Positions 33,144 to 55,702 of a DNA stretch of 64,000 nucleotides are shown one piece after another. Where the stretch lies: assembly GCF_001865995.1 (NCBI RefSeq), contig NZ_MLQQ01000042.1, positions 186,001 to 250,000 on the forward strand, written 5' to 3'. The stretch is from Anaerobacillus arseniciselenatis. Its GTDB lineage: Bacteria; Bacillota; Bacilli; Bacillales; Anaerobacillaceae. The position numbers were made by a program, and so were the translations under genes. The notes under the pieces are model-generated. The model did not search any database, was not told the origin of the DNA, and saw only the letters and a program-made list of their open reading frames with translations. Within the stretch, counting starts at the first letter, position 1; each line of letters begins with the position of its first letter.

Positions 33144-33258
33144 GTGAATTTCATAATTACCTAAAATGAGCCATATCAAACTATATGTAGTTGCGAGTGG
33201 TTTAACGCAACTACATATAGATGCTTAATGGCGATAATATTGAATTATGAAATTCATT
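33144..33258 (+). repeat. Palindromic repeat family 1, copy C
   Basis: This is a well-preserved copy. Its central stem is a perfect 15-bp palindrome, CTATATGTAGTTGCG (33181-33195) with its complement at 33206-33220. The ends are GTGAATTTCATAATTACC and AATTATGAAATTCATT. It ends 12 bases before the polC ribosome-site region. Confidence 0.92.
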
Positions 33259-43169: not shown

Positions 43170-43285
43170 ATGAATTTCATAATTCAATATTATCGCCATT
43201 AAGTAACTATATGTAGTTGCGTCAAAACCGTTCGCAAACTATATATTGTTTAGTGTGACTCGTTTTTGGTGATTATGAAATTCAC
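43170..43285 (-). repeat. Palindromic repeat family 1, copy D
   Basis: This copy is inverted relative to copies A-C. Its ends are ATGAATTTCATAATTC and GATTATGAAATTCAC. The left stem arm (CTATATGTAGTTGCG) is of subtype 1 while the other arm (CGCAAACTATATAT) is of subtype 2, so it looks like a hybrid. It lies between rbfA and truB. Confidence 0.9.
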
Positions 43286-45885: not shown

Positions 45886-45999
45886 ATGAATTTCATAATG
45901 ACCTAAATTGAGCCATATCAAACTCTATGTAGTTGCGAGCAGTTTAACGCAACTACATAGAGATACTTAGTGGCGATAATAATGATTATGAAATTCATT
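45886..45999 (+). repeat. Palindromic repeat family 1, copy F
   Basis: The central stem is perfect: CTCTATGTAGTTGCG (45923-45937) and its complement (45948-45962). Compared with copy C, both arms carry a matching change, so base pairing is kept. It lies 45 bases before pnp. Confidence 0.92.
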
Positions 46000-51018: not shown

Positions 51019-51134
51019 GTGAATTTCATAATTACCAAAAATGATCCACATCAAGAAATATATGGTTTGCAAATGGTTTTGACGCAACTATATATTGATC
51101 TTAGTGGTGAGAATAATGAATTATGAAATTCATT
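51019..51134 (+). repeat. Palindromic repeat family 1, copy G
   Basis: The ends are GTGAATTTCATAATTACC and AATTATGAAATTCATT. The centre is of subtype 2 (CGCAACTATATATTGATC on the right), with left-arm substitutions. It separates the ymxH terminator from the dpaA promoter. Confidence 0.9.
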
Positions 51135-52987: not shown

Positions 52988-54037
52988 ATGGCAACAGAAA
53001 CAGGATTAAATGTAGCAGTAGTTGGAGCAACAGGAGCTGTAGGGCAGCAAATGCTCCGTACTTTAGAACAACGTAATTTCCCAATTTCAAAACTTACTTT
53101 ACTTTCTTCAAAGAGGTCAGCTGGAAAAAAGTTAACATATAAAGGAGAAGAAATTGTTATCCAAGAAGCTACTCCGGACAGCTTTGAAGGAGTGCAACTC
53201 GCTTTATTTAGTGCAGGTGGTTCTATTTCCAAAGCATTAGCACCTGAAGCTGTAAAAAGAGGTGCGATTGTCGTTGACAATACGAGTGCTTATAGGATGG
53301 ACCCAGAAGTGCCATTAGTTGTTCCTGAAGTGAATGAAGAAGAACTCCGTAACCATAAAGGAATCATTGCTAACCCGAACTGTTCAACAATTCAAATGGT
53401 GGTGGCATTAGAGCCGATCCGCAAAAAATATGGTATGAAAAAAGTGATTGTTTCAACATATCAGGCCGTAAGTGGTGCTGGTGCTAATGCGATTAAAGAA
53501 ATGGAAGAGCAAACGAGTGCAATTTTAGACGGTAAGGAATTTACTCCTGAAATATTACCTTGTGGAAGTGATGAAAAGCATTATCAGATCGCGTTTAATG
53601 CGATTCCGCAAATTGATAAATTCCAAGATAATGGTTTTACTTTTGAAGAAATGAAAATGATTAATGAAACAAAGAAGATTATGAATATGCCTGAATTACA
53701 AGTCGCAGCTACATGTGTAAGAATCCCAGTCGAAACAGGTCATTCTGAATCATTATTTATTGAAGTTGAGAATTCAGGGTTAACAGTTTCTGAAATGAAA
53801 TCTATGTTATCAGAAGCTCCAGGGGTTGTTTTAGAAGATGACCCTGAAAATCAAATTTATCCTATGGCAGTTAATTGTGTTAATAAAAATGACGTTTTCG
53901 TTGGTCGAATTCGTCAAGATTTAGATAATGAGAAAGGGTTCCATTTGTGGGTAGTTTCTGACAACTTATTAAAAGGTGCAGCTTGGAATTCGGTTCAAAT
54001 TTCTGAGAGTTTAGTAAAATTAGGTTTATTAAAGTGA
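52988..54037 (+). CDS. asd: Aspartate-semialdehyde dehydrogenase
   Basis: Asd makes aspartate semialdehyde for diaminopimelate, lysine, threonine and methionine. The NADP site [13 protein letters not shown] is near the N-terminus. The catalytic Cys is residue 132 in NPNCSTIQM. The substrate-binding histidine region is ETGHSES. Length is 349 aa. Its TGA stop (54035-54037) lies within the first bases of repeat copy H. Confidence 0.96.
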
Positions 54038-54149
54038 ATTTCATAATTACGTAAATTGAGCCATTTCAAATTATAGGTAGTTGCGAACGGTTTGACGCAA
54101 CTACATTATAGATACTTAATGGCGATAATATTGAATTATGAAATTCATT
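54034..54149 (+). repeat. Palindromic repeat family 1, copy H
   Basis: This subtype 1 copy has the ends GTGAATTTCATAATTACG and AATTATGAAATTCATT. The central arms contain GTAGTTGCG and CGCAACTAC with flanking differences. It includes the asd stop codon. Copy I follows 161 bases later, and the two flank the dapG leader. Confidence 0.9.
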
Positions 54150-54178
54150 AATTAAAATAATAATTTGAAAAAAGTTTT

Positions 54179-54299
54179 GGAAGGCAGACAAAAAGTGCGA
54201 AATAGCCCATCATCTTTAAAGGAGTGGTGATCATTGATAAACAAATACGTTTATCTTGAGTGAGCTATCGGCTCTTTTATGTTAGCCTTCTCTTTTTTC
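54179..54299 (+). promoter_or_regulatory. Folded leader region before dapG with possible leader peptide
   Basis: GAAGGC (54180-54185) and GCCTTC (54285-54290) can close a long structure that ends in TCTTTTTT. Inside are ATAGC/GCTAT and GATAAAC/GTTTATC stems. AAAGGAG at 54218-54224 stands nine bases before a TTG codon that opens a nine-codon ORF encoding (M)INKYVYLE. A terminator-like end plus a small ORF suggests attenuation, but no known riboswitch class was recognised. Confidence 0.4.
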
Positions 54300-54310
54300 G
54301 CCATTAAAAA

Positions 54311-54426
54311 GTGAATTTCATAATTATCAAAATGAGCCACATCACGCAATATTTTAGTTTGCGAATGGTTTTGACGCAACTATATATTGATCTTAGTGGC
54401 GGTAATAATAAATTATGAAATTCTTT
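54311..54426 (+). repeat. Palindromic repeat family 1, copy I
   Basis: This subtype 2 copy has the left end GTGAATTTCATAATTATC and a slightly decayed right end AATTATGAAATTCTTT. It lies 53 bases before dapG. Confidence 0.88.
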
Positions 54427-54478
54427 AAATTAAATTTAAAAATAATTATGTGAATAATAAGGAACAAAGAGGTGTAAC

Positions 54479-55702
54479 ATGAAGGTCATCGTTCAAAAAT
54501 TTGGTGGGACCTCATTAAAAGATGAGGAATCTAGATTTCAAGCGGCACAACATGTTTTATCTGCAGTGAAACAAGGCTATAAAGTAGTCGTTGTCGTTTC
54601 AGCTATCGGTAGAAAAGGAGATCCTTATGCGACAGATACGCTACTGAGTTTAGTAAATGCCCACGAAGAAACATTCGTAGAAAAACGAGAACTTGATTTA
54701 TTAATGTCGTGTGGAGAATTAATTTCATCGGTTGTATTTTGTAATTTATTAGCAAGTCACAATTTAAAGTCGATGTCAATGACAGGTGCGCAAGCAGGGT
54801 TTCGAACAAATGAGGACTTTTCTAGTGCTAAAATTGTTGAAATGAATTGCGATAAATTATTAAAACAATTAACTACACATGATTGTGTAGTCGTTACAGG
54901 ATTTCAAGGAATGTCAGAAAATGGAGAATTAACTACTTTAGGTCGTGGTGGAAGTGACACTTCAGCAACCGCTATTGGAGCGGCGATTCAAGCAGAGTGG
55001 GTTGATATCTTTACGGATGTAGAAGGGTTAATGACAGCAGATCCAAGAATTGTTAGCGAAGCAAAACCCATTGATACAGTAACGTATAATGAAATATGTA
55101 ATATGGCTTATCAAGGAGCAAAAGTCATTCATCCTCGTGCAGTAGAAATTGCGATGAATGCAAAAGTGCCGATTCGGATTCGCTCTACGTTTTCAGATCT
55201 AGAAGGTACGTTAGTAACATCAAGCTTAAAACAACAAAAAGGCATGGATGTAGAAGAAAGATTAGTTACAGGGATTGCTTATGTTTCTAATGTTTCACAA
55301 ATTAAAGTGATCGCCAAAGAAGGGCAATACAATCTACAATCGCAAGTATTTAAGGCGATGGCGAATGAAGGTATAAGTGTTGATTTTATCAATATTAATC
55401 TCATGGGTGTCGTTTACACGGTCATGGATGAAAATACAGATCGGGCAGTCGAACTTTTAAGAGAGATGGGTTACGAACCGATGGTAACGAGAAATTGTGC
55501 AAAAGTTTCAGCTATTGGGGCTGGCATGACAGGAGTTCCAGGCGTTACAGCAAAAATTGTAGGAAGTCTTGCTGAGGAGAATATTTCAATTCTTCAATCT
55601 GCAGATTCACATACGACGATTTGGGTTTTAGTTAAAGAAGAGGATAAAGCAAAAGCAGTTAACGCATTGCATAAAATCTTTAAGTTGGATCAGGCCCTCT
55701 AA
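54479..55702 (+). CDS. dapG: Aspartokinase I DapG
   Basis: DapG phosphorylates aspartate; in B. subtilis it is the diaminopimelate-sensitive isozyme. The kinase domain has VQKFGGTSLKD, SCGELISS and LGRGGSDTSATAIGAA. Two ACT domains fill the C-terminal part from about residue 265, with INLMGVVYTVMDE. Length is 407 aa. It follows asd and precedes dapA, the usual set for spore cortex and dipicolinate precursors. Confidence 0.95.
   Translation: MKVIVQKFGGTSLKDEESRFQAAQHVLSAVKQGYKVVVVVSAIGRKGDPYATDTLLSLVNAHEETFVEKRELDLLMSCGELISSVVFCNLLASHNLKSMSMTGAQAGFRTNEDFSSAKIVEMNCDKLLKQLTTHDCVVVTGFQGMSENGELTTLGRGGSDTSATAIGAAIQAEWVDIFTDVEGLMTADPRIVSEAKPIDTVTYNEICNMAYQGAKVIHPRAVEIAMNAKVPIRIRSTFSDLEGTLVTSSLKQQKGMDVEERLVTGIAYVSNVSQIKVIAKEGQYNLQSQVFKAMANEGISVDFININLMGVVYTVMDENTDRAVELLREMGYEPMVTRNCAKVSAIGAGMTGVPGVTAKIVGSLAEENISILQSADSHTTIWVLVKEEDKAKAVNALHKIFKLDQAL

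Follow-up and report, generated by a model that had tools for sequence, protein, structure and literature searches.

The closest described counterparts of the element analysed here are found among the intrinsic terminators of Bacillales, the attenuators of the aspartate family, and the hairpins that separate the same two genes in other bacteria. Bacillales terminators of the type GGCTGAC...AAAAG/CTTTT...GTCAGCC resemble its outer palindrome, and terminator-like palindromes of this type recur in unrelated Bacillales genomes (L083, L085, L087, and L093), the short versions being ordinary terminator-like hairpins. The element differs from them in the conserved blocks that its loop of about 70 nt contains and in its occurrence at one fixed locus. 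The lysine riboswitch (RF00168) and the aspartate-family attenuators are similar in would-be design, a structured RNA with a terminator before a lysine-pathway gene, but the element has no match to the RF00168 model. Strong hairpins are also located in the asd-dapG spacer of other Bacillales families (L187, L188, L189, L197, and L069), and these are simple stem-loops unrelated to the element in sequence. Known riboswitch classes are usually distributed more widely than one genus.

The window analysed is a stretch of 64 kb from an Anaerobacillus genome (G000), where the element occupies the spacer in the locus spoVFA-spoVFB-asd-element-dapG-dapA, with the dipicolinate synthase subunits encoded upstream of asd and dapA downstream of dapG. 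Three lysine riboswitches were identified with the RF00168 model elsewhere in the same genome, ahead of a second dapA, lysC, and lysA (gene names taken from the translated products). Since these riboswitches precede other genes, the lysine branch that they control is separate from asd-dapG-dapA. No convincing strong conserved promoter was detected between the element and dapG, and thus dapG probably depends on read-through. A literature search found nothing on the asd-dapG element locus.

Structure of the asd-dapG spacer

The following features were assigned in G000 (helices are numbered P1 to P4; block identities are those of the seven Anaerobacillus genomes).

52988..54037, + strand: asd, aspartate-semialdehyde dehydrogenase (Pfam Semialdhyde_dh and Semialdhyde_dhC)
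About 54033-54150 and 54308-54430: flanking copies of a palindromic repeat family of about 118 bases
54180..54290, + strand: conserved structured RNA element, P1 to P1' (model R1, identity)
54181..54189, + strand: P1 5' arm AAGGCAGAC (identity 0.94; high pairing probability)
54191..54195, + strand: P1b 5' arm AAAAG, invariant (identity 1.0)
54203..54208, + strand: TAGCCC, 5' arm of P2 (identity 0.87)
54209..54231, + strand: P3 hairpin ATCATC/GGTGAT, enclosing the SD-like AAAGGAG (from the fold; lost in G005)
54234..54263, + strand: TTG ORF with nine codons, considered incidental (not conserved)
54236..54255, + strand: P4 hairpin GATAAAC-loop-GTTTATC (identity of arms 0.92 and 0.96; 98% of cells paired; loop of 3-6 nt)
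54262..54274, + strand: alternative mini-hairpin GAGCT-ATC-GGCTC, then TTTT, terminator-like (terminator scan)
54274..54278, + strand: P1b 3' arm CTTTT, doubling as the U-run behind the mini-hairpin (identity 0.92)
54281..54289, + strand: P1 3' arm GTTAGCCTT (identity 0.84)
54291..54298, + strand: U-tract TCTTTTTT behind P1 (from sequence; not kept in all relatives)
54479..55702, + strand: dapG, aspartokinase (Pfam AA_kinase plus ACT domains)

An earlier note on this DNA had described nested stems, a ribosome-binding sequence with a short ORF, and a terminal T-tract between two repeats, and all of these can be read directly: GAAGGC (54180-54185) opposite GCCTTC (54285-54290), ATAGC (54202-54206) opposite GCTAT (54264-54268), GATAAAC (54236-54242) opposite GTTTATC (54249-54255), AAAGGAG at 54218-54224, TTG at 54234 with the stop codon TGA at 54261-54263, and the T-tract CTCTTTTTT at 54290-54298. 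The minimum-free-energy fold of the segment (-35.8 kcal/mol) contains all these stems and exceeds the stability of dinucleotide shuffles (-24.2 +/- 3.5; z -3.3), none of 200 being as good. The proposal of a structured RNA ahead of dapG is thus borne out, the more so as a counterpart is found at the same place in relatives.

The judgement that the RNA is neither a lysine riboswitch nor a T-box also holds. None of 4227 Rfam families reaches its gathering score within the window; RF00168 gives no match there, nor at a relaxed threshold in the element, and the T-box model RF00230 has no match above the gathering score in the window. With relaxed thresholds, the element and its counterparts in relatives gave chance-level Rfam matches only.

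The two flanking copies are real and belong to a palindromic family with the ends GAATTTCATAATT/AATTATGAAATTC, which is shared by all seven Anaerobacillus genomes. For G000 the count of scored copies is at least 40 (373 first-look candidates), and the window has about ten, e.g. 33146-33255, 43172-43283, 45888-45996, and 51021-51131. The repeat is MITE/REP-like and forms a long hairpin; one copy adjoins the lysine riboswitch upstream of lysA (L203; G000:C1:564620-564744). The six relatives have no such repeats in their asd-dapG spacers, where the element stands alone. Judging by this comparison, the flanking copies most probably arose by recent insertion and do not belong to the element.

Conservation and phylogenetic distribution

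The genus set obtained by a dapG search consists of seven Anaerobacillus genomes (G000-G006), and each has the element in its asd-dapG spacer, matching the R1 covariance model in a single copy with 80.8-112.5 bits. The element has a mean pairwise identity of 0.62, as against 0.315 in the downstream spacer and 0.373 at the fourfold sites of dapG, which are near saturation. The conserved blocks are P1 (AAGGCTGAC/GTCAGCC), AAAAG/CTTTT, UAGCCC, GATAAAC/GTTTATC, and GGAGCUA (block identity 0.79), whereas identity falls to 0.29-0.58 in the joints, in the loops, and in the region of P3. The element is a genuine intercistronic RNA under selection and apparently specific to the genus. In the six genomes that lack the repeat insertions it starts 8-19 nt past the asd stop codon and ends 49-97 nt ahead of dapG. 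The suggested dapG leader does precede dapG, yet in these six genomes it adjoins the end of asd, and thus it belongs to the 3' side of asd as much as to the leader of dapG.

The shared fold comprises P1, P1b, and P4, with P2 in most genomes. The RNAalifold consensus energy on a hand-made structural alignment is -20.2, compared with -2.1 +/- 1.9 for 300 column shuffles. On a MAFFT alignment, 90% of cells pair, as opposed to 30-50% with the arms slid, and the z-scores of single-sequence folds range from -2.4 to -6.2 across the seven genomes. There are several exceptions: G005 has lost P3, G002 has a different P2, and in G006 P4 contains mispairs and is not predicted to form. Covariation support is weak. 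The sole pair changed on both sides (C-G to U-A in P1 of G002) is a count reached by 150 of 500 shuffles, with seven sequences only; several other pairs change to G-U, and covariation does not rise above shuffles. On the asd-dapG strand, most wobble changes of P1 and P4 read as G-U where the opposite strand would have A-C, which mildly favours the sense strand as the RNA. A reading of GATAAAC/GTTTATC as a DNA operator is disfavoured, since the P4 loop varies from 3 to 6 bases.

When the covariance model was run over genomes of the order (299) and of the class (398), strong matches came from Anaerobacillus only. All others were weak; most of these are short terminator-like hairpins whose outer palindrome is of the same kind, and a few are longer, equally weak matches at other loci. 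Scanning 84,980 species with a DNA pattern yielded only two Anaerobacillus records confirmed by the model, the pattern being too strict for the motif versions near that of G000 and like that of G002. Among 83 asd-dapG spacers examined from other genera, 30 do not reach 30 nt in length, and unrelated strong hairpins, mostly lacking U-tracts, occur in several. One spacer from another family (L150, genome G043) scored 15.8 bits (E 0.15), which is not convincing; on its minus strand, positions 96-189 form a nested hairpin with AGGCTG/CAGCCT ends. From these sequence comparisons, a hairpin at the asd-dapG boundary recurs, and the RNA of the G000 type appears to be confined to Anaerobacillus.

Termination features and the alternative hairpin

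The U-tract behind P1 is strong in G000, G004, and G006, weak in G001, G002, and G003, and absent in G005, where a separate terminator-like hairpin AGCTCTAGAAATCTAGAGCTTTTT is situated downstream of the element. As the tract is poor in four of the seven genomes, P1 does not count as a conserved site of termination. The sole terminator-like site found by scanning positions 53900-54600 of the window is GAGCTATCGGCTC-TTTT (0.1 in shuffles). A comparable mini-hairpin with a stem of 3-5 pairs before a U-run occurs in six of the seven genomes, individually with weak significance (0.03-0.11 of shuffles).

The mini-hairpin and the P1b and P2 helices are mutually exclusive. Full-length folds are dominated by P1/P1b. 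In truncated transcripts the mini-hairpin is predicted for G004, G005, and G006 and not for G000, G001, and G002. Similarly, in relatives the AGCC within TAGCCC has the GGCU of P1 as a second possible partner, and this alternative appears in the truncated-transcript folds of G003, G004, and G005. A consistent two-state switch was rejected, the alternative folds being seen in some truncated transcripts only; as far as these predictions go, a two-state attenuator is possible.

Possible function of the element

The reading that we prefer, to which we give roughly an even chance, is that of a structured RNA that acts in cis, is specific to Anaerobacillus, and restricts read-through from asd into dapG-dapA. 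According to this model, the nascent RNA would fold into P1/P1b, and either P1/P1b with the U-tract or the inner mini-hairpin with UUUU would stop a part of the polymerases. Such a partial stop might protect the 3' end of asd and lower read-through into dapG-dapA, whose level could thereby be set apart from that of asd and the upstream sporulation genes. Against a plain terminator stand the approximately 70 interior bases with their conserved blocks, which it would not need. Because UAGCCC, P4, and GGAGCUA are conserved in this interior, the sequence suggests that they are bound by some factor or that the RNA switches between P1/P1b/P2 and the mini-hairpin.

Such switching is central to another explanation, in which a metabolite (diaminopimelate, dipicolinate, or an aspartate-family compound) or a protein would bind the interior and control dapG-dapA by shifting the RNA between the P1/P1b/P2 fold and the fold with the mini-hairpin, or with GGCU/AGCC. 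It is consistent with the conservation of UAGCCC and GGAGCUA, each pairable in two mutually exclusive ways, with the mini-hairpin in six genomes and in the truncated folds of three, and with the fact that other lysine-branch genes of G000 have riboswitches and dapG has none. However, the full-length folds are mostly P1/P1b, the truncated transcripts of G000, G001, and G002 lack the alternative, and the RNA is known from one gene context in one genus; from the modelled folds we regard such a sensor as a possible but doubtful explanation. Unlikely, in our estimate, is a purely post-transcriptional role, in which a hairpin at the asd 3' end would serve for stabilisation or processing and give the asd and dapG mRNAs different half-lives without termination. 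The proximity to the asd stop codon, the poor conservation of the U-tract, and the unrelated strong hairpins lacking U-tracts in the same spacer of several other lineages agree with it, while the proper terminator U-tract in three genomes and the mini-hairpin with UUUU in six argue against it.

The earlier note had proposed attenuation that depends on a ligand or is coupled to translation of the nine-codon ORF, and the form of an intrinsic terminator is indeed present in G000, as are the SD-like AAAGGAG and the TTG codon. The coupled leader itself fails: the ORF is absent or altered in the six relatives, with a counterpart of four codons in G004, one of seven codons lacking an SD sequence in G001, different readings in G002, G003, and G006, and no start codon in G005. 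AAAGGAG is present in G000 only, and a single Lys codon is found among the nine. Since the ORF, its frame, the SD sequence, and the start codon are not conserved across the seven genomes, the leader-peptide model was rejected and is hardly credible. Descent from a decayed gene or mobile element, for instance from a BsrG-type type I toxin mRNA or from the flanking repeats, is very improbable. The BsrG model (RF01412) does give weak matches of 15.6 and 19.8 bits, but these are far below the gathering score of 55 and no toxin ORF was found. In addition, the element is a single copy at one syntenic site in seven genomes, its arms are conserved there above the neutral level, the repeats are missing from this site in the six relatives, and no phage, plasmid, or viral-contig match to it was found. 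A relation to Hol_Tox-type toxins was likewise rejected, the sole confident Hol_Tox match of the genome being at another locus (L009, positions 1501-1605), a small-protein gene above the Pfam cut-off. A further proposal is that of an undescribed class of metabolite- or protein-sensing attenuators of dapG-dapA with two mutually exclusive terminator-like hairpins, which we consider quite unlikely.

The element limiting read-through, as preferred here, is a conserved RNA without an Rfam family, situated at the boundary between asd, which is common to the synthesis of lysine, threonine, methionine, and dipicolinate, and the aspartokinase of the diaminopimelate branch. If it is regulated, it would illustrate how a spore former keeps the supply of cell-wall precursors apart from the upstream sporulation-linked genes, in a branch outside the reach of the lysine riboswitch. 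If it is passive, it would exemplify well how elaborate an intercistronic hairpin under selection can be.
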